IMG/VR virus record: IMGVR_UViG_3300043772_001630
Coordinates: 1-39,609 of that record
Origin: a virus
Reading direction: 5' to 3' (one strand)
Length of the DNA: 39,609 bases
In this document: piece after piece, positions 152 through 39,609 of the stretch
How the letters are laid out: the number at the start of each line of letters is the position of its first letter
Numbering within the stretch: position 1 is the stretch's first letter
Program-made: the position numbers and the translations under genes
Notes under the pieces: model-generated
Told to the model about the DNA's origin: nothing
Database searches by the model: none
The model's input: only the letters and a program-made list of their open reading frames with translations

Positions 152-1018
152 ATGGTGGTTGAGAAAGTTACCAGAAAATCTATGATTATAAGACCAAGTG
201 GGAGGAGTACTGATTTTATCAGTCCCTCCTTTGGTCATGGCTGTTTGTATAACTGTACTTACTGTTATATGAAAAGACATAAGCCGGAAGGATTATCTGT
301 AGCTACAAATACTATGGATATCCTGACAGAAATTAATTCACATGCTTATTTTTCTACAGTAGAGAAACCAAATCAAACAGGAGAGTATGTAACCTATGAT
401 ATCTCTTGTAATGAAGACTTTGCTCTGCATGCTAAATATCATGAATGGAAGACAATCTTTGGATTCTTTAGAGATCATCCACTTGCTATGGGTTCATTTG
501 CCACTAAATATGTAAATGGAGAATTATTATTATTTAATCCAGAAGGTAAAATTAGAATAAGATTTAGTTTGATGCCTGAGAAATGGAGAAAGATTCTTGA
601 ACCTAATACAAATTCTCTTGATGAAAGACTTAGAGCTGTAAAATGGTTTATTGATGCTGGCTATGAAGTACACTTAAACTTTAGTCCTGTAATAGTACAT
701 GATGATTGGTTAACAGAGTATGAGTTCTTATTTGATATAATTGACAAACATTGTTATATGTATCATTGGCCACAAAACTCTATCAAAGCTGAAGTAATAT
801 TTCTTACTCATAATGAAGATAAGCATCAGTATAATCTACAGCATAAACTTCCAGGTGAAGATTTACTTTGGGTACCTAAAATACAAGAAAGTAAAGTATC
901 TCAGTATGGTGGAAAGAATCTTAGATATGAACACAACAGAAAAGCAGATTACATCAAACAGTTTGTTGAGTTACATGATAAGATAATACCTTGGAATACA
1001 ATTAGATATATATTTTAG
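152..1018 (+). CDS. Radical SAM protein, spore photoproduct lyase-like
   Basis: This 288-aa protein has a radical-SAM cluster motif, C31-x3-C35-x2-C38, in the context CLYNCTYCYMK. The spacing and the Y-C-Y context match spore photoproduct lyase (SPL), which repairs the 5-thyminyl-5,6-dihydrothymine UV lesion with a 4Fe-4S cluster and S-adenosylmethionine. Forty-eight residues later, SCNEDFALH (C86) sits where SPL has its hydrogen-donor cysteine (C141 in Bacillus subtilis). The C-terminus resembles SPL as well: EVIFLTHNE, then YGGKNLRY, ending in RYIF. The protein is slightly shorter than the Bacillus enzyme (about 340 aa), mainly at the N-terminus. The ATG at 152 follows an A/T-rich leader without a Shine-Dalgarno sequence. 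Assignment to the SPL-like radical SAM group is firm; that it repairs this lesion in phage or host DNA is inference, because Bacteroidota do not make spores. Confidence 0.82.
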   Translation: MVVEKVTRKSMIIRPSGRSTDFISPSFGHGCLYNCTYCYMKRHKPEGLSVATNTMDILTEINSHAYFSTVEKPNQTGEYVTYDISCNEDFALHAKYHEWKTIFGFFRDHPLAMGSFATKYVNGELLLFNPEGKIRIRFSLMPEKWRKILEPNTNSLDERLRAVKWFIDAGYEVHLNFSPVIVHDDWLTEYEFLFDIIDKHCYMYHWPQNSIKAEVIFLTHNEDKHQYNLQHKLPGEDLLWVPKIQESKVSQYGGKNLRYEHNRKADYIKQFVELHDKIIPWNTIRYIF

Positions 1019-2590: not shown

Positions 2591-2944
2591 ATGTTTAGTG
2601 GTAAATTCATTAAGAAAAATGGAAAACTTATCTTTAATAGTCCACAAGATAAATTAGCTTATGAGATTTTTGTAGATAAGATTTCAGAAGGTCAAAAAGT
2701 AGAAATGTATATTGATCTTGCAAATACAGATCATAGTAAAGCACAACTTGCAAAAGTACATGCTTGTATTAGAGAAATGGCAAAAGAGTCTGGATACACT
2801 TTTGATGAAATGAAAGATGTAGTAAAAGATGCATCTGGTCTAGGGGGTAAATCCTTTGCAGATTGTAGTAAAGATGAACTTATGTTAGCTATAGAAGCTT
2901 GTATACAAATAGGAAGAGAACAGTTTAATCTTTCTCTAGGGTAG
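2591..2944 (+). CDS. Hypothetical protein, possibly NinB/Orf-like recombination accessory, 117 aa
   Basis: I start this gene at the ATG at 2591, two bases after the preceding stop. A TTG nine bases earlier overlaps that gene and is less likely. The 117-aa product begins MFSGKFIKKNGKLIF. Its C-terminal two thirds is helical (DHSKAQLAKVHACIREMAKESGYTF, shown here in part), with the later segment KSFADCSKDELMLAIEACIQ. The layout of N-terminal strands, 'S-K-A-Q-x-x-x-V-H', then 'T-F-D-E-M-K-D' and a C-terminal helix recalls NinB/Orf-type phage recombination accessory proteins, but the match is weak. Its 3' end overlaps that of the opposing gene at 2925-3242 by 20 bases. Confidence 0.55.
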   Translation: MFSGKFIKKNGKLIFNSPQDKLAYEIFVDKISEGQKVEMYIDLANTDHSKAQLAKVHACIREMAKESGYTFDEMKDVVKDASGLGGKSFADCSKDELMLAIEACIQIGREQFNLSLG

Positions 2945-3242
2945 GTGCTACGTAACCTTCATCTCCTGGTTCTAAGACTTCTTTTTCATCATATAGTTTT
3001 TGTTCACTTGCCTGTCTTTCTATTTCAGCAAGAAGAAGAACTATTGTATAAAATGTTCTTTGAGCAGAATCTAAATCTTCATATTTTTTATTCATGATGT
3101 CTTTAAAATAGTCATCACCTTTTTCGGGAATATTCATTGATTGAAGTACATGAAAAGATGCAGCTTTAGCCATTAAATAAAAACTTTTATTAACCTTGAT
3201 GTCTAATATTACATCATCTTTCAATTCTTTAACTTTTATCAT
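2925..3242 (-). CDS. Hypothetical protein on opposite strand, 105 aa
   Basis: This frame fills the gap between the rightward genes ending at 2944 and starting at 3274 and runs the other way. I place the start at the ATG with bases 3240-3242; a TTG further upstream would reach into the UDG leader. The product starts MIKVKELKDDVILDIKVN and is predominantly helical. It contains SAQRTFYTIVLLLAEIERQA in the middle and an acidic C-terminal tail (EPGDEGYVAPTLEKD). Amino-acid composition is ordinary for a soluble protein, which argues against a chance frame. Function unknown. The composition recalls small helical proteins that crAss-like phages encode beside structural genes, but I cannot place it. 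Its promoter must lie in or near the first codons of the uracil-DNA glycosylase gene. Confidence 0.6.
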   Translation of the reverse strand: MIKVKELKDDVILDIKVNKSFYLMAKAASFHVLQSMNIPEKGDDYFKDIMNKKYEDLDSAQRTFYTIVLLLAEIERQASEQKLYDEKEVLEPGDEGYVAPTLEKD

Positions 3243-3273
3243 AGTATTAATTTTAAACAAAAATAGAAAAAAA

Positions 3274-3972
3274 ATGGATTTAGAAGAAATTAAACAAAAA
3301 ATGTTTACTAAACTTGGACCCAGCGGCTGGGACAGGATATTTAAATCTTTTGTATTTAGCAGTGACTTTGATGATATACTTACTAAGTTGTATACACTGA
3401 GTCAAGAGGATAAAAGGTTTACTCCACCACTTAAACAAGTCTTTAGGGCCTTTGAGGAGTGTCCATATGATAAACTACAAGTAGTAATAGTAGGTCAGGA
3501 TCCATATCCACAGTTAGGAGTTGCAGACGGTATATCATTTAGTTGTGGTAACACAGGTAAATTACAACCAAGTCTTAAGTATATCTTAGGAGAAGTAAAC
3601 AGGACAGTATACAATGGTCATCCAGTAAGTGAAGATGTAGATCTTACCAGATGGTCTAATCAAGGTATACTTATGCTTAATACAGCTCTTACAGTTGAAG
3701 TAGGTAAGATTGGTAGTCATTATGATATATGGAAACCTTTTACTGCCTACTTGTTAGATTGGTTAAATAATTATAATCCGGGATTGATTTATGTATACAT
3801 GGGTAAAAAAGCTGAAGAATGGTCTGAACTTACTACTAACACTGAGTATAAGTTTACTGTTAAACATCCTGCTTCTGCTGCTTATAACGGTTCTAAATGG
3901 GATAGTAATGATATATTTGTTAAAATATCTTCAATAGTAAATAACACTAGTAATAATATAATAACGTGGTAA
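3274..3972 (+). CDS. ung: Uracil-DNA glycosylase, family 1-like
   Basis: A 232-aa enzyme predicted to cut uracil from DNA and leave an abasic site. Residues 74-79 are GQDPYP, the water-activating motif of family 1 UDGs (canonical GQDPYH), with catalytic Asp76. Then follow GISFS (86-90), the uracil-contacting Asn136 in GILMLNTALTVE (131-142), and H198 in HPASAAYNG, the DNA-intercalation loop (canonical HPSPxS). Length is close to that of bacterial Ung. I use the ATG at 3274, which lies in the A-rich leader. A frame upstream to 3196 would code a hydrophobic stretch overlapping the divergent gene and is not convincing. It opens the rightward replication unit. UDG is a common gene of crAss-like phages; the exact family and the reason a phage keeps it (uracil repair in its own DNA, or attack on host DNA) remain inference. 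Confidence 0.9.
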   Translation: MDLEEIKQKMFTKLGPSGWDRIFKSFVFSSDFDDILTKLYTLSQEDKRFTPPLKQVFRAFEECPYDKLQVVIVGQDPYPQLGVADGISFSCGNTGKLQPSLKYILGEVNRTVYNGHPVSEDVDLTRWSNQGILMLNTALTVEVGKIGSHYDIWKPFTAYLLDWLNNYNPGLIYVYMGKKAEEWSELTTNTEYKFTVKHPASAAYNGSKWDSNDIFVKISSIVNNTSNNIITW

Positions 3973-27731: not shown

Positions 27732-30700
27732 TTATGAACATTTAAAAGGGTCTTCTTCTAATTCTAATTGCATTTCTATTTCTTCATCAGAGATTCCTTG
27801 AGTTTTTATTATCATTTCTCTTACCTGGTTATATTTTGTAGAACCAGGATTGATATATCCAAACTCTTCAAACAATCTCTTACTTAAATATACGAATAAT
27901 TCTTGAGGCATGGTGTTAGGATCACCAAAACCATACTCAGGAAATGCAAGTTTACCACCTTTTTCTTGAATTTGTTTAAGTATATTAATTCTTTTCTCCC
28001 AAATATTTTTAAGTGTTTGATATTGATCTGATGCAATGTCTATCTTTCTACCATTAACAACACTTGCAAATAAATCAGTTGGGAAATTAACTGACATATC
28101 TCCTACTTCTGTCATAAAGTAAGCAGAACCTCCAAGATTTCTACCTGCAGCAATTTGTTCCGGTTTAATTTCATAAATACTTATGTTATGTACAAAGACA
28201 ACATCAGGATTATTTTTACCAAGATTTAAATAGTAAGTTGCATTTGTAGCATTCTTATCATTGTAAGTATAAACATTAGGATCATCTGTATTCTTAAGAT
28301 TAAATCTTTTTACTTCAGCTATTGTATCTTGATTAGTAGAATCTAAAATAACTTCTTCTACATCTGATTCAGCATTTCTATCTTTCTTTATAGTAGGATT
28401 TTCTACAGGAAGTATTCTTTCTACATTTTCATAATCAATAGTAGATAAATAATCTTTAAATCGATCTCTATTTGGACTAATTTTTTTATTATTCTCTCTT
28501 ATGAATTGATCATAGAAATTATCTAAAAGTGTAAATCCTTTTTTATTTAAAGCTTCAATAAACTTACTAGACTCACCTTCTACAATAGATAAAAAGTCTG
28601 TATAGTCCACTACATTAGTAAAGCTTAACTTAGTCTTGTTTAATCCGGTTTGTAAAAAAGCAAAAGTGTTTAAGTATTTAAACATGTCACTTAGTCTAGC
28701 ATTTTCTTCTGGGTCAGTTAATTTTACAACTGTTCTATCAGAAAGTTTTTTTAAATCTTGTGTATAAAGATTTGATTTATCATTATCAAAGTCTTTATCA
28801 GCAAGTAATATATTAAATGCATCATTCTCTTTAGTTGAATCAAGTTTTAATTTACCTATAATAGGATAATTTTTAGCTAGTTCAGGATAGTTTTGTATCA
28901 ACTTAGACAATCTTACAGAAAATGAATTATCATCATCTCTAAAAAGATGGAAGAAATTATATGAATTATCTAATGCTTTTATAGCAATCAGTTTTTCATA
29001 TGTATACCTTACAGCTTTTTCATTAGTTAAATCTGGAAATAATTCTTTAGTGCTATCAAGTTCTTCTTGAAATTCAAATGAATTTGTAAACTCAGTATTC
29101 AATGGTTTTATATATCTAATATATTCTCTCTCAGCAACAAATTTTAAATATTCATCAAAGTTTGCACCGTAATGATTCATGAAAGTAGAAGGATCTAATT
29201 CATAAAGTTCTCTGTCTTTATAACTGTTCTCTACTTCAGAGTTTCTAACCCAAGCACTATCTTTAAATTCTTTTTTAATCTGCTTCATATCCATGTACAA
29301 AGTACCGTTCTTTACAAAGGCTCCTCTTTTTAATTCTTTAGCCATTGATACAGGAATAGTTGTTTCCATATCTAAAGACATAAATCCATCCTGTTTTTTA
29401 TATTTTCTAATAGCATTTTGCAGAATAAAACTTACAAGGTCATTTCTAAAGATATTACTAAACATCTCAATATTCTGTCCAGGGAATGTAGTTTGAAGAT
29501 CATTATTTATTTGACCTTTTCTAGCAATTAAATATTCACTAATTTCCTTGTGATATCTTAATTTAAATAAAGGTCTACTTACAGCTAGTGCAAGGGGACC
29601 ATTAAAGAATGACTTTAAAATAGAATCCTCCATCATAGCTTCAACAATCTCTAATGGAACTCTTGGGTCAAAGAATAAATTCTCAATATTAGCCTCTGTC
29701 TGTTCTACATCAGAAAGAGTAGACTTAGTAGCAGTATCTGGATTAGATGCCATTTTAAGTGCAGTATAACCAGCAATCTGTTGTTCTAGTTCTAGATAAT
29801 GTAAGAACATAGCTTTTGCCATATTACTTTTTCTATCATCCGTTTGAATAAGATTCAACATGTTTTCTTCAGTAAAATGCTTTTGTTTTTTATCTTTAAA
29901 ATAATCTTCTAAAAGTTCTTGTCCTTTTAAATATCTATCATCATTTTTTGAATTACCTGCAAGTTCATCTTTAGTAAAGTATTTTTTAATTACTTCAGAT
30001 GCTGCTTTATATTTTGCAAGTCCTGGACCGTCAGGTTTTTTGTTAAGTACATCGGCAAATGTAGATTTTGCAAGACGTTGCTCATCTACATACTCTCTAA
30101 CCAATGGATTAGATACAAAGTAAATTGCTTCTTTTACAGGTACACCAGCTTTAATAAGATATAATAATGTTGGAGCAACCTCATAGTTACCCTGGATAAA
30201 GAAGATCCATGCATCTTTTTCAACGTCCACCCATCCATTGATCATCTGAGAAATAACATCTGATATTTTATTTGTTCCATCAACATCGTAAAGGTCTGAC
30301 ATAGAGATGACCTCTTTACCTCTTCTTTCCATCTTATTATGTCTCAGCCTCATGTTACTTTTTCTTGTTACTTCTTTTATTACATAAGTATCTGGCATAT
30401 AAGCACCAATGGTATTCATGATAACATTAAATGTATTTTCAATTGCACCAAGACCTAGAGTTTTCTTACCTACAATATTAGATTCATGTTTGTATACGTT
30501 ATACAATGATTCTAATACTCTTGTAGGACTGATCTCCCCAGTATCATCTGTCATTCTATTTTCTTTTGGATTATATTCCATTACGTCTGCAGATAATTTT
30601 TCTGCAATTTCTTTAAGAATGAAAGTACCATTTGGCATGATCAAAGAAGCATAGTTCTCAGGAAGTTCAAGAATATTTTTAATATCTTGAATTAGTTCAT

Positions 30701-33700
30701 TTTCTAATCCTGCTTTCTGAGCTTTAACAGCATTTTCAAATTCATCAGTACCTCTAAGTTTTTTAATGTCATTGTTGTCTTTGTACTGTCTTTCAATAAC
30801 TTTCCCATCTTCATCAAGTGTATTCATGAAGATTGTAAGTTTATCAATGTCAAAGTCACCACCAGACTTAGCAACTATCTCAGCAGGAGGAACAATAATA
30901 TTACCGGCTTGTGGTGGTAAGAATTCAAATACCTCAGCAAATTCCATAGAGTTTAGACCCTGAACAGGAATCCTAACACCAACTAATGTTATTGCTTTTC
31001 TGTTAGCTTCATTATTAGCATCTAACCATTTGTCATCTTTAATCTTCTCATTTAATCTAGCTAAAGATTCATCCATATTTAAAACACCACTCTCATCATA
31101 AACACCAACAGTTTCATCATTATCATATTCTAGATTAAAAAGATTATAATAAGTCCCTTGCATTGCAATCATAACTTTTGCAGCTGCAGTATAACCATTT
31201 GACTTTCTATGATAAGTTGGAAGTGTATATGTTGTAGAAGCCCATTTTTTAATCTCATCTTTAGTTGCTTTTTTTAAGTCAGGTTTAGAAAATTGATTAG
31301 CAGTTAGTCCAACAGATACTTGTACAAGTGGTTCTCCGGCAACTTTCTGTTTAATAATTCTCTTATTAATCATAGATAATAATAACTTCTCTATTTTAGC
31401 AGCCTCTGGATGAAATGATAAGTCATGAACTAAGTCTCCACTATTATCATACACATCAATAAACTCAATAAGATTATCACTTAAAAGATCTTCTCTTTCA
31501 AGATTAGTTCTGATAATGTTTATTAGTTTAGCTGTACTTGATTTATCTTTTGCTTTATATTCTCCAGGGGATGTTTCTTCATATCCCATTTCTTCTAGAA
31601 GTTCCAACTTTAATAGCTCAGTATACTCTTCTACGTGGTCTATATATTTTTTAACTCTAGTATTTGTTATGTCTTTATATTTTGTAGACTTAATTGAACC
31701 TTGAGCATAAAGACCCTCTAAAATTAATTTTCTTAACTGAGTTGAGAAGATTGATTTTTGTTTATAGGTAGAGTTAATTTCTGTTTGGTTTTTTAAGAAT
31801 TCAGCATAGACAATATTCTTAGTAAATTCTGCCTTTTTGTTTAGACTACCGTCTTCATTAAGCATGTTATCTCCATTTCCAATATGACTTACTTTTGATC
31901 CTGACTCAAATAAAACATAATCTACTTGATCTTTCATCATTTTTTCATGTAAATCATAAATTGGTGTACCAGATTTCCATACTCCAGGAATTAACGGAGC
32001 AAGTGAAAACTTATGGAATGAATTTACAGGAAGACCCTCTGATTGAATATTACCAAAGTACTGTAATTTATAAGGTGGAAAAAATTCTACTACATTTTCT
32101 GCAGTTATATTTTCTCCCATAGAAATTTTTCTATAAAGTAACTCTTGTTGATCACTCCAGTTACCTTCAGCTTTCTTAAGGATCCTGTAGTATTCCATAG
32201 TAATAAAACCCTGACCATCAGCAATCTTCATCTGAGGTTTGTTAGATCCAAAGTATTCTGATGCTGCTGTATCTGCAATTTGTTTTGCTTTCTTTCTATC
32301 TTTAGTTCTTTCATAGGTTGCTTCTTCAATGGCATCTCTGTATTCATTATACATTACAGAATTAAATGTCATTTCTTTCATGATAGCAGTTACAAGAGTA
32401 CCATCATAGTTTCTAGTTTCATAACCTTGTCTATCAGCATAATAGTTTTTCAAAGAACTTAAATATATCTGAGCTCTTTTATCTGCACGGAATCCTCTAC
32501 CTCCAGAACCTAAACCAGCATTTCTTTTATGGAATTCTTCTTTAGCATGATTATATTGTGCTAAGTCACCATATGCAAGTATTACTGTTTCCATCTTATG
32601 GATGAAAGAGTTATATGTATATGCTTTCATTAGTGCACGTTCTATATCTTTATCTGTAAGATCTTCATTTGTAACACGGATTCTTTCCATTAATCCATTA
32701 TCTACATACTTAGCTTTTTGTAATCTAGCTAAGTTTTTATTAGTCTCAAGATTAAAATATTGAGCTACATCTTTTCTAATTCTGTTTCTTATTTCAGGAT
32801 TGTTATCCAATTCTTTCATAAGATCAAAATCAGTTAATGGATTTTCTGAAGCTGCATCTAATATAGAATAAAGATCTGCTTGTAGATCCTGAGACAATAT
32901 ATCATCAAATGCTGTAAATGCTTGACCAGCCATTACAGGAGTTTTTTTATTGTCTTTTCTTTTTACTTTTCTATTGTAGCCGGCATAGTTTTTAAACTTA
33001 TCAATTCCTTGTTGGAATCTAACTATTCTGTTTGCTTCTGCAGCAATATATCCTTCAACAATATCATACCCTTTTATTTCTCCATCAGCATACTCTAAGA
33101 AAGATTCAACATCTATATATAATTTAGAAGCTTTTTTACCATTGTATGTTTTAACTTCACCGTCAAGAGTCATACCCATAGATGTATTCTTAGAAGCATG
33201 TCTCATAAACTCTTCAACACCACTTAACAACATTGTATGAAACTCTTGCAAAAACTTACTTGTTGCATCCATAGCAGCTGTAGAAGTTCCACCTTCATTT
33301 CTTTTACTCACCATTTGAGTACCAGCCACATGTTGTAGTAGTATTTTAGTATCAGTAATTTTTTGACCATATGTATCTGACATAGGATCTAAATCAAAGA
33401 TAGAGTTAAGTAGTTTTGAAAAAGGACTAAATGTATTATTCTTTTCATTTAGCCATCTCATATGTTGGAATCTACGTGCAGGATCCCCTTCATCAGTAGT
33501 TAGTTCTTCCCAAGACTCTGCATGATTAATTGCAGTTACAATTCTTGTAATAGTATTGTCTACCATATGTTCCCAAACTCTATTTCCTTCTGGAGTCTGA
33601 ACACTAAAGTTAGAATAACTATCAGAGAATGCATTTTGTATCTCTGCAAGAGCTCTGATTCTACCTCTTACTTCTTCACTTTCTTCCTCATTATCTCTTA

Positions 33701-36700
33701 ATGAAGTTGGAAGACCGTTGATAAAATATGTAAGTGGATCTCTTTTAAATTGAAATGCATCAGGAGATGTACTCTTATTTACTTTTTTGATTACTTCATA
33801 CATTCTGTCTACACCAAATGTAGTTCCAAATGGTTCTGACGTACTGTTTATAATTGATCTTATAGCTGCACTAGATGGGTCTAGTACTATACCAATTGCT
33901 CTTAAAAATTCATCTGCTTTTTTATAATTAAATACACCATTTACTCCAAAGTCTTTTACAATCTTACCAGTGTTTAAAATGTTGTAACCTAGTTTTGAGT
34001 GTTTAGATACATATGGATTAACTGTAGAATCTGCAGTAGTAAAGTTATTTTTCCAGTCCTGGATTACTTGATACACATCAAAGTTTGCTTTTGCAACCCG
34101 TGCTTCAAATGCTCTTACAAGTACATCTTTAGATTTTATTTCTTCCTTATTTAAGTTTAATTGAATAAACGGCACCCTTGGTTTTTTAAAGTCTTGCCAG
34201 AAATTTGTTTCTGCTTCAAACTCTAAAGGATTATACATACCCATAGCACTTTCAATTGTAAAGAAAGGATTAGGTAATAAAGTCTGAAGTTGTTGTAGCT
34301 CAGGATAGTTTTCAGAATTTTCAAAAATTCTTACATACATATCTATTTCATCAAATGAACCCTCTAAAATTTTAGCAAGTCTATTCCACGTAATAGTTAT
34401 ATCTTGTAATTTAGGAAGACCAAACAAACCATCTCGATTATAAATGATCTCTCCATTTTCTCTAGTTACATCAAAGATACTTGCCAATAACATCATAGTT
34501 TCTTGACTAGCAAGTTCTTTAGATGAAACTGTATTACCTCCTTCATTTAATCTAAACAAATAACTCTTCTCAATATTACTTGGATCTTCGATCTCATCAT
34601 ATTCATCAGCAAGTACTTTGTATCTAGATTTTTCTAAATGATATGCAATAACATTATTCTTTTCTTTACCACTAAGTGAATCAGTAAGATTTCCAAAATT
34701 GTCTGTTATCTTAATTAATAATTCAAACTCTTTGCTAAATTGTGGATCAATAATAAGATCAATATTCTTTTCAGCTTCTTCAGCATATTTTATTCTTAGT
34801 CTTTCAAATCTGTCATAAATATCTTTGTAAAGATCTTTTTTGTTTTCCGGATCTTTTAAAAGTTTTAATGCTGCAGATGTAGTATTAAAGTCTCTGTTAT
34901 AGTTTTGGAAAATAACAGCCATCATACTATCTATAGCATCTGCAATTTCTTTAGACTCTTCTAATGTAAAATTATCATTGATGACTTTGCTTCTATTTAG
35001 TTTCCCAAACATTACATTATCCATAGAAGGTTTTAGATTAGATAGAATCTCTGGATTTTCAGAGGCTCTGTATAGTTTGTCAAATAATTCTTTGACAGAT
35101 TCAATATCTTGAAGTTTTGTTGCTACTTCTTTCTTAGTAGTTTTTCCAAAAAGCTTTTGTATAAACTGATAAATCTTATCAAAGATTTTACCTAAGAAAC
35201 CACGAGTTGCTTTTTTACCTTTAGATTTTGCATACCCTCTAAACTCTTCAGCTAAATCTTCTTCTATATCAAAGAAACTTTTTCCTTTATATTTAGGAAG
35301 ACTTTGTATTTCTTCATAAAGTTTTACTTTCTCATCTTTAGTAAGTAATAGTTGAGAGAATCCATGCCATGCTTCATGGTATAAATCTACAGATGTCCCA
35401 CCATCAGCTTCATATAATGTAATACCATAACCTGACCATGTTGCAAATGCATCAGAGTTCACTACTTCAGTAATTCTTTCAAGAGAAATGAACTTACTTA
35501 ATGGAGAATTATTCCACCATTTTTCTGCTGCAGCTCTATCTGATTTTGAAGTAAATACTTTATCAAGAAACTTATTACGGAGTTTATCTCTGTTAAGTTT
35601 ATCTCTTTTATAAAAAGCCGAGTTAGAAGAACCATTAATAATATCATCTACTAATGTTATTCTAGTAGAAGGATTACTTTGTATATTAACTTCTTTAGCT
35701 TCTGGTGCTGTTAATGGTTCTGGTTTTACTGTAGTCTTAGTATCAGCAGTAGCTTCTAATGCAATAGACCTAAACTCAGTTATTTGTTTTTCAGTTAACC
35801 CAACTGCTTCAGCTAAATCAGCAACCTTCATTCTAGTTTTATAACCTTCAACTTTTCCACCTGCATCTTTAATTTGTTTCTTCATAGAAATCTCATATGC
35901 AGACACTTCTTTTGATGCACCAGTAGTTACAGGTTTAGTTCTTGCTTGTTTTTTAGGAGCTTTTTTAGTTTCTTCTTTATCCTTTTTAGTTTTCTTTTCA
36001 GGTTCAGCTTTTGGTTTAGGTCTTCCTACAGGTATATATCCTTCATACTCAATTGTTCCTTCTGGGATAACATAATTAAGATATGCATTAATACCTTTTT
36101 CTTGTGCTAATACCTCATCTGTATATGTAATCTTTACATAAGGTTTAATTACATCAAAGTATTTTCTACTTGTACTAATAATCTTACCATCCTCAATTGT
36201 ATAATCAGTGAATGTAGTGTTTCTATATTTATTATTGTATTGAACATTTGCTGGCCAATATCCATTAGAACCTTCTTCTTTACCTTTACTAACTTTCTTA
36301 GGTCTAGCTGCAAGTAAATGATTTAAAATCATTTGTTTACCTTCTTCAGTATAAAGAATAGCATCATCAATTTTTTTACCATTTATTTCTACAACTAATG
36401 TCTTTTGATTATTAATTGTCAATACTTTAGCTTGAATTCTATCACGGTTTGTATTAGATTTTTTTGCACGAGCATTATTAATAAAGATTTCAAAGTATGA
36501 TTTTCTTTCATCTGGAGAAAGTTGTCTACCTTTTAACTCAACTGTGGTAGTTAAGATAGTAGCAATTTTATCTGCTAATTCAGGATCTATATCTGATCGT
36601 TGTAAAAATAACTGTTGACTAACTGTAAGACCACCGGCTTTTTGTTTGTTTACAATAATGTATTGTAGACCCTTTTTTTCACCAGTAGTAATTGGAGTAT

Positions 36701-37886
36701 AACTTTTTAAATCAGTTTCAGTTACTCCAGCCTCTTCTAAAGTTACAGTTTTAACTGATGTTGTTGGAATACCAAATGTTCCTCCTGTAATAGGAAGAGT
36801 TAATTGTAGATTTTGTTCCGATGATTCTAGTAATGTTCTAAGTTGATATAAATCATTTAGTTCTTTTTCTTGACGGGCAGCAATATCTTTTACAAGTTGT
36901 TTAAACTGTGTTTCAGTAACTTCTCCTTTAGCTTCAACTATTTGATCTCTTTGTCTTTCAGCTATTTTAACTGGATCAACTAAATTATATAATCTGTTAC
37001 TTCTATTAGAAAGCAGTAATTTACCATCTACAAGATTTACTCTACGTAAATATTGATACACTATCCTACCCTCAGATGGGTTATCAGTCAAAGAACCATC
37101 TGGTTTAAAGTATAAATTGTTACCTTTCTCATCAGTAAGAATTACAATTACACCATTAGTATTTGGATATTTTTCTAAATGATCTCTATCATTTTGTACA
37201 AGAAGTTCTTTTGGAACACTTCTAGTTAACTGAGCAGTAAGTGCAATTGTTTTACCTTGATATTGTATATCTTCAGTACCAACTCTATCTTTAGATATTT
37301 GAGATATAGCTTTTATTACATCACTAAAAAGTATTTTTTCTGGATCAATTTTATTCCTGTCTTCTTCAGATACTTCTTCAGGATTTTCAGAGTAGGCAAT
37401 TTGAATAGATGTAGTCCATGCACTAGTAACTTTAGCACCATTGTATTCATTATATGACCAAAGTGTTTCGTTATCAATATCAATCTTAGGTACAAAATCT
37501 TTTTTAGTTTTATTTGTATCTTTTATTTCAGAATCAATTTCGTCCTTGCTCTTTTTTTTAGTTGCAACAGTTTTACCAACTTCAGCAAGATCAGCAAACT
37601 GTTTTCTCATTTTTGCAAGACCAGTAAAGTCAAAATTATTATCAACTAAATAATCATTTACTTCTGTGTCTTGTGTTACTAAATGAAATACATCAGGAAC
37701 AGCCTGTGCATATAACATAGCCTTTACTTGATCTTCAGAATTAAGTTTTACAACAGCATATGCTGATTGTACTAATTGATTTAAATCAACAGGAGGTAAC
37801 GATGAGTCTTTTAATCTATCTGCTACTTCTCCATAAAGTGCTTCATAAAGATCTAATACTTGATCTTTATCTAGTTTACATGCCAT
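27732..37886 (-). CDS. Giant virion RNA polymerase protein (3384 aa)
   Basis: A 3384-aa protein carrying the signature of the crAss-like virion-packaged RNA polymerase. Residues 2344-2348 are DFDID (in AKSGGDFDIDKLTIF). The three Asp bind the catalytic Mg2+ in a double-psi beta-barrel, and VRIPVQGLNSMEFAEVFEF precedes them. The other barrel is likely about 1950-2005 (FHKFSLAPLIPGV, K1959; IYDLHEKM; DYVLFESGSKV). Upstream are a Lys-rich hinge (about 621-650) and a zincin module, H837-E-A-W-H841 with the downstream helix EEDLAEEFRGYA. The C-terminal about 170 residues form a separate conserved-looking domain (NLGGSAYFMTEVGDMSVNF). ATG at 37886, one base after the preceding stop. By analogy with phage phi14:2, the enzyme is ejected with the DNA and transcribes early genes. 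Much longer than phi14:2 gp66 (about 2200 aa), so extra domains are fused here. Confidence 0.88.
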   Translation of the reverse strand: MACKLDKDQVLDLYEALYGEVADRLKDSSLPPVDLNQLVQSAYAVVKLNSEDQVKAMLYAQAVPDVFHLVTQDTEVNDYLVDNNFDFTGLAKMRKQFADLAEVGKTVATKKKSKDEIDSEIKDTNKTKKDFVPKIDIDNETLWSYNEYNGAKVTSAWTTSIQIAYSENPEEVSEEDRNKIDPEKILFSDVIKAISQISKDRVGTEDIQYQGKTIALTAQLTRSVPKELLVQNDRDHLEKYPNTNGVIVILTDEKGNNLYFKPDGSLTDNPSEGRIVYQYLRRVNLVDGKLLLSNRSNRLYNLVDPVKIAERQRDQIVEAKGEVTETQFKQLVKDIAARQEKELNDLYQLRTLLESSEQNLQLTLPITGGTFGIPTTSVKTVTLEEAGVTETDLKSYTPITTGEKKGLQYIIVNKQKAGGLTVSQQLFLQRSDIDPELADKIATILTTTVELKGRQLSPDERKSYFEIFINNARAKKSNTNRDRIQAKVLTINNQKTLVVEINGKKIDDAILYTEEGKQMILNHLLAARPKKVSKGKEEGSNGYWPANVQYNNKYRNTTFTDYTIEDGKIISTSRKYFDVIKPYVKITYTDEVLAQEKGINAYLNYVIPEGTIEYEGYIPVGRPKPKAEPEKKTKKDKEETKKAPKKQARTKPVTTGASKEVSAYEISMKKQIKDAGGKVEGYKTRMKVADLAEAVGLTEKQITEFRSIALEATADTKTTVKPEPLTAPEAKEVNIQSNPSTRITLVDDIINGSSNSAFYKRDKLNRDKLRNKFLDKVFTSKSDRAAAEKWWNNSPLSKFISLERITEVVNSDAFATWSGYGITLYEADGGTSVDLYHEAWHGFSQLLLTKDEKVKLYEEIQSLPKYKGKSFFDIEEDLAEEFRGYAKSKGKKATRGFLGKIFDKIYQFIQKLFGKTTKKEVATKLQDIESVKELFDKLYRASENPEILSNLKPSMDNVMFGKLNRSKVINDNFTLEESKEIADAIDSMMAVIFQNYNRDFNTTSAALKLLKDPENKKDLYKDIYDRFERLRIKYAEEAEKNIDLIIDPQFSKEFELLIKITDNFGNLTDSLSGKEKNNVIAYHLEKSRYKVLADEYDEIEDPSNIEKSYLFRLNEGGNTVSSKELASQETMMLLASIFDVTRENGEIIYNRDGLFGLPKLQDITITWNRLAKILEGSFDEIDMYVRIFENSENYPELQQLQTLLPNPFFTIESAMGMYNPLEFEAETNFWQDFKKPRVPFIQLNLNKEEIKSKDVLVRAFEARVAKANFDVYQVIQDWKNNFTTADSTVNPYVSKHSKLGYNILNTGKIVKDFGVNGVFNYKKADEFLRAIGIVLDPSSAAIRSIINSTSEPFGTTFGVDRMYEVIKKVNKSTSPDAFQFKRDPLTYFINGLPTSLRDNEEESEEVRGRIRALAEIQNAFSDSYSNFSVQTPEGNRVWEHMVDNTITRIVTAINHAESWEELTTDEGDPARRFQHMRWLNEKNNTFSPFSKLLNSIFDLDPMSDTYGQKITDTKILLQHVAGTQMVSKRNEGGTSTAAMDATSKFLQEFHTMLLSGVEEFMRHASKNTSMGMTLDGEVKTYNGKKASKLYIDVESFLEYADGEIKGYDIVEGYIAAEANRIVRFQQGIDKFKNYAGYNRKVKRKDNKKTPVMAGQAFTAFDDILSQDLQADLYSILDAASENPLTDFDLMKELDNNPEIRNRIRKDVAQYFNLETNKNLARLQKAKYVDNGLMERIRVTNEDLTDKDIERALMKAYTYNSFIHKMETVILAYGDLAQYNHAKEEFHKRNAGLGSGGRGFRADKRAQIYLSSLKNYYADRQGYETRNYDGTLVTAIMKEMTFNSVMYNEYRDAIEEATYERTKDRKKAKQIADTAASEYFGSNKPQMKIADGQGFITMEYYRILKKAEGNWSDQQELLYRKISMGENITAENVVEFFPPYKLQYFGNIQSEGLPVNSFHKFSLAPLIPGVWKSGTPIYDLHEKMMKDQVDYVLFESGSKVSHIGNGDNMLNEDGSLNKKAEFTKNIVYAEFLKNQTEINSTYKQKSIFSTQLRKLILEGLYAQGSIKSTKYKDITNTRVKKYIDHVEEYTELLKLELLEEMGYEETSPGEYKAKDKSSTAKLINIIRTNLEREDLLSDNLIEFIDVYDNSGDLVHDLSFHPEAAKIEKLLLSMINKRIIKQKVAGEPLVQVSVGLTANQFSKPDLKKATKDEIKKWASTTYTLPTYHRKSNGYTAAAKVMIAMQGTYYNLFNLEYDNDETVGVYDESGVLNMDESLARLNEKIKDDKWLDANNEANRKAITLVGVRIPVQGLNSMEFAEVFEFLPPQAGNIIVPPAEIVAKSGGDFDIDKLTIFMNTLDEDGKVIERQYKDNNDIKKLRGTDEFENAVKAQKAGLENELIQDIKNILELPENYASLIMPNGTFILKEIAEKLSADVMEYNPKENRMTDDTGEISPTRVLESLYNVYKHESNIVGKKTLGLGAIENTFNVIMNTIGAYMPDTYVIKEVTRKSNMRLRHNKMERRGKEVISMSDLYDVDGTNKISDVISQMINGWVDVEKDAWIFFIQGNYEVAPTLLYLIKAGVPVKEAIYFVSNPLVREYVDEQRLAKSTFADVLNKKPDGPGLAKYKAASEVIKKYFTKDELAGNSKNDDRYLKGQELLEDYFKDKKQKHFTEENMLNLIQTDDRKSNMAKAMFLHYLELEQQIAGYTALKMASNPDTATKSTLSDVEQTEANIENLFFDPRVPLEIVEAMMEDSILKSFFNGPLALAVSRPLFKLRYHKEISEYLIARKGQINNDLQTTFPGQNIEMFSNIFRNDLVSFILQNAIRKYKKQDGFMSLDMETTIPVSMAKELKRGAFVKNGTLYMDMKQIKKEFKDSAWVRNSEVENSYKDRELYELDPSTFMNHYGANFDEYLKFVAEREYIRYIKPLNTEFTNSFEFQEELDSTKELFPDLTNEKAVRYTYEKLIAIKALDNSYNFFHLFRDDDNSFSVRLSKLIQNYPELAKNYPIIGKLKLDSTKENDAFNILLADKDFDNDKSNLYTQDLKKLSDRTVVKLTDPEENARLSDMFKYLNTFAFLQTGLNKTKLSFTNVVDYTDFLSIVEGESSKFIEALNKKGFTLLDNFYDQFIRENNKKISPNRDRFKDYLSTIDYENVERILPVENPTIKKDRNAESDVEEVILDSTNQDTIAEVKRFNLKNTDDPNVYTYNDKNATNATYYLNLGKNNPDVVFVHNISIYEIKPEQIAAGRNLGGSAYFMTEVGDMSVNFPTDLFASVVNGRKIDIASDQYQTLKNIWEKRINILKQIQEKGGKLAFPEYGFGDPNTMPQELFVYLSKRLFEEFGYINPGSTKYNQVREMIIKTQGISDEEIEMQLELEEDPFKCS

Positions 37887-37887
37887 T

Positions 37888-39609
37888 TTAACAAAATTTT
37901 GAGTTGTTTCCTAATTTATTCCATCTTGATTGACTATCTGATGTTTTTGCTTTTTCTTTAGCTTCAGCAATAGCATCTTGTCCATTTTTAATTAAATCAT
38001 CAATAGTATCTTTTGACTCTTTAGAATCTTCTATATCTACTGGTGTTAATTCTACTTCTGGTTCTGGTTGTGTTGCTTCCATAGTTGTTTTTTCAAAATT
38101 TTCTGCAAAGAATGCGTCTGTAAATTCTTTAACTTCTCCGGTTTTAATATTCTTTAAAGTAACAGTACTTTGAGTTCCTGGAGGATAAGCAACTTCTTCT
38201 TCATATATATCAAAAATATCTACTACTTGTACTATTTCTCCAGAAATATCTGTAAAGATAGGATTTTTACTGATAAGATACTCTCCAATTTCTACATTTG
38301 AAACAGCATTAATTGTTTTTAATTCTTGCAATCTTTTCTTATATGATTTAGTAAGTTCAGTTGCATCCTCTCCTCTTTCTTGTGCCTCTAAAAATGCTTT
38401 TTGATAGATTAATTCTATAGTATTTAATTTAGCTATATTTTCTATAGTACCTATATCGTTTAACATAGCTTCACTAAGAGTACCTACTTCTTCAAATACT
38501 ACTGGTTCATCAAAAACATCAGTTAAGATTTCTTCTCTTGCTTGTTTGACAAGGTCTTTAAGTTCCTCTCTTGTAGCTTGTCTAGGAACTCCTTCTGTTT
38601 TTCCTCTGGTAGTCCTTTCATTCTTAGGTACACTAGTCCCTTCCTGTACTCGTTGTCCTTCTGTAAAGATTTTTCTGACTTCTGCATAATTTTTAATTTT
38701 ACGTTCTCTTGTTAATTTAATTAATGTTAGATCATTTTTTAATTCTAACAAAGCATTAATTTGATTTTGTATATCATCAACTAGATCACCTCTGTTTATA
38801 ACAGTATAACCTAGTGCATATAATTTTTCAATAGATGTATCTATCCACTTGTTGATTTTTGGTTTAGCTTTAAACTTGTAATCAAAAGTACCATCAAATA
38901 ACATATCTAATTCTGCAGGATAGTTTTCTGATAGTATTTCAGTAATAGTATCTGCAATAGCTGTACTCAATGATAAGTTACTAATAGATTTAAGATCTTG
39001 AGTTTCTTGAGCTTTTGTATTTTCTTTAGTTAATCTTTGAAAGTTATTAGGTAATCTGTTTAATGCAAATATATAATCATTAGCATTCTCACCATATAAA
39101 TACATCTTCTTATTAGTTTCTGAAAGAAATGTCTTTTTACCAGTAAGAGTTCTTACTTGATTTTGTAAATCAGCAATACGTGTTATAATTGAATCTTGTT
39201 TATAATTCCGACTTACTGTTCCATCTGTTTCTTCTACAGCTTGATTATTACGTAACTTAGTAATCTTATCATTTATATCTTTGATTTCTTTGTTTAGTTT
39301 ACTAATTGCTTGATCATTAATCATATAACTAAGAGTAGTTATATTTCCTGAAGCATCACGTAATACATCATATCTAACACCATTAATACTAGCTATTGTT
39401 TCTTCTTTATTAGAGAAAGATGCATTAATGACTTGGCCTTTAACAGTTGATAACTGACCTACTTTATCAATTGGTATTACAAGTTGAAGACCCACTTTAT
39501 CAAAAGAAACATCTCCATTAGTAACTTTATTTAGATTTTCTTGTAATGGAAATATTTCTGTAATACCTTTATTAGATTCAATAGCATCAGATATTCTTTT
39601 GATATCTCT
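37888..39609 (-). CDS. Large helical protein of the virion RNA polymerase operon (5' part beyond window)
   Basis: The frame is open from the TAA at 37888 to the right edge of the window with no stop (573 codons visible), so the gene starts outside. A GTG at 39493-39495 is a possible internal start but has no special context, and the coding pattern continues past it (ESNKGITEIFPLQENLNK). The protein is mostly helical, with coiled-coil-like stretches (SKLNKEIKDINDKITKLRNN, DLVKQAREEILTDVFDEP) and a short beta unit (QVVDIFDIYEEEVAYPPG) near the C-terminus. The end is acidic, then polar (SRWNKLGNNSKFC). It precedes the RNA polymerase gene by one base and is in the same operon. In crAss-like phages the gene at this position encodes another large, co-ejected virion protein. 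No catalytic motif seen. Confidence 0.7.
   Translation of the reverse strand, partial: RDIKRISDAIESNKGITEIFPLQENLNKVTNGDVSFDKVGLQLVIPIDKVGQLSTVKGQVINASFSNKEETIASINGVRYDVLRDASGNITTLSYMINDQAISKLNKEIKDINDKITKLRNNQAVEETDGTVSRNYKQDSIITRIADLQNQVRTLTGKKTFLSETNKKMYLYGENANDYIFALNRLPNNFQRLTKENTKAQETQDLKSISNLSLSTAIADTITEILSENYPAELDMLFDGTFDYKFKAKPKINKWIDTSIEKLYALGYTVINRGDLVDDIQNQINALLELKNDLTLIKLTRERKIKNYAEVRKIFTEGQRVQEGTSVPKNERTTRGKTEGVPRQATREELKDLVKQAREEILTDVFDEPVVFEEVGTLSEAMLNDIGTIENIAKLNTIELIYQKAFLEAQERGEDATELTKSYKKRLQELKTINAVSNVEIGEYLISKNPIFTDISGEIVQVVDIFDIYEEEVAYPPGTQSTVTLKNIKTGEVKEFTDAFFAENFEKTTMEATQPEPEVELTPVDIEDSKESKDTIDDLIKNGQDAIAEAKEKAKTSDSQSRWNKLGNNSKFC

Follow-up and report, generated by a model that had tools for sequence, protein, structure and literature searches.

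Large multidomain RNA polymerase (RNAP) proteins are already in print for crAss-like phages (PMC7886860, PMC10136315), where lengths of up to ~6000 aa are given (PMC10136315) and fusion of the virion RNAP to large proteins is mentioned (PMC10770324). The crAss-like virion RNAP of solved structure is phi14:2 gp66 (gp077 in KC821624; PDB 6vr4). In the same record phi14:2 gp076–gp078 are annotated as structural from MS/MS, and crAss001 gp47, gp49 and gp50 were detected in virions by MS (PMC10172136). A preprint on the N4 structure places an HExxH motif in the C1 domain (PMC12633501), and zincin-like metallopeptidases are the commonest domain of phage polyvalent proteins, for which processing and conflict roles have both been proposed (PMC5512222). 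Among the papers listed, none named a zincin together with crAss-like phages or Crassvirales, although some mention crAss-like phages alongside a metallopeptidase, PMC10770324 among them. Annotators know of the zincin, which is named in the record of CrAssphage ZA, and we do not claim the zincin–RNAP link as unpublished.

The window analyzed here, a 39,609-nt stretch of viral DNA, carries a 3384-aa open reading frame (ORF2; Table 1) that a preliminary description had read as a virion RNAP fused to additional domains on a chain far longer than the phi14:2 enzyme. The frame is intact, and its product exceeds gp66 by 1204 residues. A single base separates it from ORF1 upstream and a single base from ORF3 downstream. 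Counterparts share 99.94% identity in L001 (an 85.8-kb contig) and 79% in L002, while best-segment identity is 49% in L008 and L011 and 31% in L012 and L013. Across 13 loci (best-segment identities 31–99.9%), ORF2 is unbroken within the fetched stretch, which together with the L001 copy argues that it is no assembly accident. The dN/dS of 0.14 against L002 points to purifying selection; among the segments compared, the zincin-like segment gave the lowest value (0.086) and the Lys-rich linker the highest (0.30). Searched as a whole protein against Pfam, PHROGs and PDB sequences, ORF2 gave nothing usable, and one PDB sequence row at E 0.16 was taken as chance. One DNA spelling of DFDID had no exact match in the window because the codons differ.

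Table 1. Features of ORF2 and neighboring genes. Positions refer to the window unless a locus is named; residue numbers are those of ORF2 except in the ORF3 row.
Feature	Position	Strand	Remarks
ORF1, upstream protein related to crAss001 gp47	37888..39609	-	cut by window end; 2490 aa in L223
ORF2, virion RNA polymerase polyprotein (predicted), 3384 aa	27732..37886	-	ATG start
N-terminal part, residues 1-620	36027..37886	-	helical 1-120, alpha/beta ~165-620 (model)
Lys-rich linker, residues 621-670	35877..36026	-	13 Lys in 40 residues; pLDDT <50 at 626-660
Zincin-like segment, residues ~780-940	35067..35549	-	profile matches; predicted fold
HEAWH, residues 837-841	35364..35378	-	
E876 to E880, candidate third metal ligand (E880 or E876)	35247..35261	-	
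Low-confidence linker after zincin, residues 941-966	34989..35066	-	pLDDT <50; candidate cleavage zone (conjectural)
Two-barrel RNAP core, residues 1560-2700	29787..33209	-	model pLDDT 86.1, pTM 0.81; 6vr4 match
K1959, invariant Lys N-terminal to DFDID barrel	32010..32012	-	within SFHKF; A3 column K400
DFDID, residues 2344-2348, catalytic Mg loop	30843..30857	-	three Asp invariant in 49/49
C-terminal region, residues 2701-3384	27735..29786	-	conserved in clade
ORF3, downstream protein, 2444 aa	20396..27730	-	LysM at 2121-2159; C-terminal 600 aa gp49/gp076-related
~105-aa inserted domain	L057:9699-10022 (same contig as L009, L114); L070:9774-10097; L060:3703-4023; L239:3001-3315		

The polymerase core was modeled for residues 1560–2700 from a 49-sequence alignment, A3 (minimum row identity to the window 31%; 21% in the companion alignment A4). 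A Foldseek comparison of this model with the PDB gave 6vr4, the phi14:2 virion RNAP, as the sole match at E≤0.001 (E 1.3e-30). VIA-align superposed the two over 921 residues (Z 23.2, rmsd 3.1 Å, 19% identity); QDE-1 followed at a best Z of 15.6, then RDR2 (12.2), the phage gp62 and gp64 RNAPs (9.6) and P23-45 gp96 (8.9). Chains of the AR9 and PhiKZ non-virion RNAPs (subunit unnamed in the output) scored Z 7.1–7.5 over model residues 620–861, which contain DFDID, and the cellular RNAP chains among the rows shown scored 6.3–6.6 around the DFDID region; VIA-align values below 8 would be weak on their own. Since 6vr4 aligned across model residues 1–1141 (chain 660–1729) and QDE-1 across 1–1024, the model puts both barrels on one polypeptide, as judged from whole-length alignments. 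By its modeled fold, ORF2 is a two-barrel RNA polymerase of the single-chain phi14:2 gp66 kind. A single-subunit, T7-like polymerase domain of the N4 type was considered and set aside, because the catalytic core follows a two-barrel enzyme, 6vr4, over those 921 residues.

The preliminary description had rested its polymerase assignment on DFDID and the region around K1959. DFDID lies where it had been placed, and its match to the double-psi barrel was upheld by the 6vr4 superposition. K1959 and K1998, candidates for the catalytic Lys of the second barrel, are each invariant in 49 of 49 sequences and aligned in sequence with a Lys of phi14:2 and crAss001. Distant relatives carry DFDGD, DFDVD, DFDAD or DFDFD in place of DFDID. 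The core profile matched phi14:2 gp66 in four colinear pieces (682–1783, 143.8 bits), and it also matched crAss001 gp50, DAC15, crAss002, ZA, cr10_1, cr108_1 and cr116_1. A tblastn search with residues 1501–2800 returned 109 phage records at E≤0.01, every one below 60% identity.

Upstream of the core, residues ~780–940 probably form a zincin-like metallopeptidase, as judged from the sequence. An HExxH motif followed by a downstream Glu is present in all 47 aligned sequences, and H837, E838, W840, H841, E876, A879 and E880 are invariant throughout, against a mean column identity of 25%. The N-terminal model (pTM 0.47) contains both expected helices, the HExxH helix at 833–847 and a second at 871–887 that bears E876 and E880, with the beta strands poorly modeled. 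It had no structural match at E≤0.001 in the PDB or BFVD, and its best structural match was a designed protein (Z 6.2). At the loose limit of E≤1, tblastn with residues 741–1074 found 62 phage records.

The preliminary description had listed a zincin module among extra functions "fused to the polymerase here". An HExxH segment does lie on the polymerase chain; it is not an addition peculiar to this genome. A polymerase scan covered 82 loci (the window, L029–L108 and L012), and ORF2 is complete in 62 of them. All 62 carry HExxH within the first 1300 residues, so that the zincin–RNAP unit is usual in the clade, although these ORFs are not independent: some contigs are near-identical, L029 hardly differs from the window, and in L089 the gene is split, its DFDID half lying on the next ORF. 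HExxH and DFDxD are 1432–1669 residues apart in the 61 clade ORFs with both motifs readable. A scan selected on the zincin, which has many contigs in common with the polymerase scan, found the RNAP core in the same ORF at 77 of 80 loci, and the remaining three run off the fetched stretch. The zincin–RNAP layout is thus shared by many related phages, and this genome is one case among them.

The same arrangement extends to named Crassvirales. Of 19 named genomes, 12 (11 Suoliviridae and cr108_1) encode zincin and core in a single ORF. Two others, crAss001 and cr128_1, have the zincin on a separate gene, and there the profile matches towards the C-terminal end of crAss001 gp47 and of the corresponding cr128_1 protein. 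The fraction with a zincin is biased upwards because the 11 Suoliviridae and cr128_1 were chosen after appearing in the zincin tblastn. What the 19-genome count shows is that the zincin, where it occurs, is usually on the polymerase chain. HExxH-to-DFDxD spacing in the 11 Suoliviridae, seven of them read with TAG as Gln, is 1431–1773 residues. In cr108_1 the core continues onto the next ORF: the polymerase gene is broken at DFDxD (L015:18406-18685), with profile positions up to 764 on one ORF, those from 790 on the next, and a gap between. The zincin profile had no match at E≤1e-3 in the other five genomes, phi14:2, DAC15, cr116_1, crAss002 and ZA. HExxH motifs without a profile match do occur among these: towards the C-terminal end of the upstream protein in ZA and crAss002, on the polymerase chain itself in cr116_1, and in the downstream gp076 in phi14:2; the ORFs of DAC15 above 1000 aa contain none. 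The module may therefore be dispensable, given five genomes with no profile match and DAC15 with no HExxH.

The clade-specific portions of ORF2 appear to lie elsewhere. No phage record was found by tblastn against 'phages' at E≤1 with residues 1–740 or with residues 2634–3384, and neither residues 1–620 nor the C-terminal region (2701–3384) had a profile match in nine named genomes. In the searches made, only residues 1–620 and the C-terminal part look clade-specific; the C-terminal part is conserved in the clade, with no relatives detected outside it. The Lys-rich hinge of the preliminary description was found at residues ~621–670, in a stretch modeled at low confidence. As a guess, residues 1–620 and 2701–3384 might serve in packaging, channel passage or promoter choice.

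Why is the chain so long? Measured by ungapped distance to DFDxD, the RNAPs of phi14:2 and DAC15 start at about window residue 983, whereas those of crAss001, cr128_1, ZA and crAss002 start at about residues 830–912 and therefore hold some more N-terminal sequence. By this simple distance, the start lies directly behind the post-zincin linker in phi14:2 and DAC15 only; the other RNAPs begin inside the zincin equivalent. ORF2 is thus longer than phi14:2 gp66 mainly because its gene begins upstream of the zincin. The phi14:2 RNAP is a short form and a poor yardstick, as complete ORFs of named Crassvirales reach 5443 aa.

Comparison with crAss001 suggests that related material has been cut into genes at different places. 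There, gp47 joins an ORF1-like domain (1593–1879) and the zincin (2135–2234) on one chain, whereas the window places the former on ORF1 and the latter on ORF2. Read from the sequences, the gene break falls after the zincin in crAss001 and cr128_1, before it in the window clade (behind an added N-terminal part), and nowhere in Suoliviridae. On the other side, the last 600 residues of ORF3 find a match in ZA and crAss002 at the C-terminal end of the polymerase chain, and the ORF3 boundary therefore appears to move too.

The polymerase chain itself varies among relatives. Some carry an extra in-frame domain of ~105 aa within the core, shortly before DFDxD, and it occupies one of about three sites. 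The L057 and L070 copies are 95% identical in DNA (dS 0.11), whereas the flanking polymerase is 64–68% identical (dS 1.2–1.3); the domain, far more alike than its flanks, seems to have moved recently. Among 37 loci with a match, it is inside the core in eight (several of them from the same contigs) and between zincin and core in 29, and a scan of the collection placed it within the polymerase chain in all 11 loci found. The L057 and L070 copies had no Pfam match, and the absence of Cys at their junctions, in the sequences inspected, disfavors an intein. In L089 two ORFs that overlap by the 4 bases GTGA (L089:9257-9260) take the place of a single polymerase ORF; the split is ~224 residues before DFDID, with core profile positions 1–552 on the first ORF and 557–1143 on the second; this is either a natural two-subunit form or a sequencing frameshift.

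ORF2 lies in the middle of a recognizable block. Each of ORF1, ORF2 and ORF3 matches one crAss001 cargo protein: the ORF1 profile matches gp47 at residues 1593–1879 (E 4.8e-27), and the ORF3 C-terminus matches crAss001 gp49 (E 2.9e-35) and phi14:2 gp076 (E 2.2e-28), E-values that come from a small set made up of the long ORFs of nine named genomes and the window. In the same profile search of nine genomes, ORF1 had no match to phi14:2 gp078. Assignment to the order Crassvirales rests on this cassette and on relatives, as far as sequence comparison goes. Searches of 20 clade contigs, a set that stands apart from the window itself, matched crAss001 TerL in 13 and crAss001 MCP in 13; G002, whose polymerase core is 83–84% identical to the window's, is in both groups, and G001, the contig nearest the window, which may be incomplete, matched neither. 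The G002 TerL found 126 phage records. The 20 listed have 23–25% identity, 18 of them being 'cr' crAssphage records, and given these low identities among the matches listed the lineage looks distant from named families. The + strand of the window encodes DnaB, a primase, an ATPase, a PDDEXK nuclease and a family B DNA polymerase, and crAss-like replication blocks of similar make-up have been described (PMC7886860).

Several further observations concern the window and its downstream gene. A radical SAM protein resembling spore photoproduct lyase (PF20903, E 1.4e-22) is encoded at window positions 152-1018 (+), near the replication genes. ORF3 adds a second HExxH to that of ORF2, HEFSH at its residue 664. 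HExxHP occurs in 56 of the 74 downstream ORFs of the clean set, many of which are cut by the stretch end and one of which, that of L089, is really the second polymerase half; it was not found in the downstream ORFs of L012 and several of its distant group. An ORF3 block of 400–450 residues (~166–573) is present in the window, alignable in L006, and missing in L002, L005, L007 and L010.

We consider it highly probable that ORF2 is an ejected early-transcription polymerase, the middle member of a three-protein cargo cassette, that also carries a probable zincin. ORF1, ORF2 and ORF3 would be carried in the particle and leave it together with the DNA, which is likely because the phi14:2 and crAss001 homologues are virion proteins by MS. 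Once inside, ORF2 would transcribe early genes without the host polymerase. That the polymerase is instead made after infection and never packaged seems very improbable: many viruses with two-barrel RNAPs do encode two (PMC10770324), yet virions contain the closest characterized homologues (phi14:2 gp66 and the crAss001 cassette), and an ORF3-like cargo gene comes next after the polymerase gene, as in phi14:2. For the ejected cargo polymerase, the zincin would be an active metallopeptidase during or just after delivery, and it would most likely trim cargo polypeptides, perhaps including its own chain near residues 941–983. Self-cleavage of ORF2 by the predicted zincin is possible. A cut there would fall near a gene boundary of other crAss-like phages, so that boundary shifts and proteolysis would converge; we regard as rather doubtful the fuller proposal of a self-processing cargo polyprotein, cut at ~941–983, in which shifting boundaries and proteolysis lead by separate ways to the same mature parts, an outcome that N4-type phages, with their unrelated polymerase, would have arrived at on their own.

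The substrate of the zincin could also lie in the host. After ejection the module might act on transcription, defense or envelope targets rather than on cargo, in the manner of other early effectors in phage polyvalent proteins, and its presence on a separate chain in crAss001 and cr128_1 means that action in cis is not required there. We judge this plausible though the less favored reading, as the narrow spacing and the single chain in 12 of 19 named genomes suggest a link to the polymerase, and no host target is known. It is unlikely, in our view, that the HExxH segment is purely structural, a helical part of the delivery apparatus whose motif is kept for metal binding or folding. The mostly helical model, in which the zincin sheet was not modeled, and the lack of a convincing PDB match would suit such a role, but none of the 47 sequences departs from H837, E838, H841, E876 or E880 in an otherwise divergent alignment, and the dN/dS of this segment is the lowest of those compared. 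Cargo processing by an ejected zincin–polymerase chain remains our preferred reading.

Set beside known systems, ORF2 is closest in its core to phi14:2 gp66. The two share a single-chain two-barrel core with DFDID, a large virion protein gene before and an ORF3-matching gene next. Unlike ORF2, gp66 has 2180 aa, lacks HExxH on its own chain and in the upstream protein, and has no detected counterpart of window residues 1–620 or 2701–3384. The giant transcription proteins of Suoliviridae (cr10_1, cr55_1, cr109_1, cr7_1 and others) resemble ORF2 in carrying zincin then RNAP on one chain, and differ in length (4272–5443 aa in nine complete ORFs, two more being cut by the fetched stretch) and in having no match to window residues 1–620. 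In crAss001, gp47, gp50 and gp49 are counterparts of all three cargo proteins and the zincin lies near the gp47 C-terminus, but zincin (gp47) and polymerase (gp50) are on different chains, with the genes on opposite strands. CrAssphage ZA (MK238400) shares the RNAP core and its record names an 'RNAP associated protein fused to zincin protease'; there the zincin is on the neighboring gene, unmatched by our profile, and the polymerase chain ends in a gp49-like part. A poorly annotated 10-kb gene of an environmental crAss-like lineage is thereby placed, through its modeled core, in an RNA polymerase family of solved structure. The long form, with its zincin, is widespread, and the enzyme of solved structure, that of phi14:2, is a short form; delivery models that start from phi14:2 thus omit a probable protease that is conserved.

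Two more distant polymerases invite the same comparison. The N4 virion RNAP (gp50, Schitoviridae) is an ejected polymerase of ~3500 aa, similar to ORF2 in size and in having an HExxH domain within the chain (PMC12633501, PMC5512222), but it is a single-subunit T7-like enzyme in which that domain is C-terminal to the polymerase, and the resemblance is likely to be convergence. P23-45 gp96 is likewise a two-barrel virion RNAP on a giant chain with a metallopeptidase domain (PMC10770324); it differs in being a tape-measure protein with a clamp-less core, and it reached only Z 8.9 against the model. An HExxH or metallopeptidase domain thus accompanies an ejected polymerase in N4 and P23-45 as well, on different polymerases or scaffolds, which makes a role in delivery directly testable.
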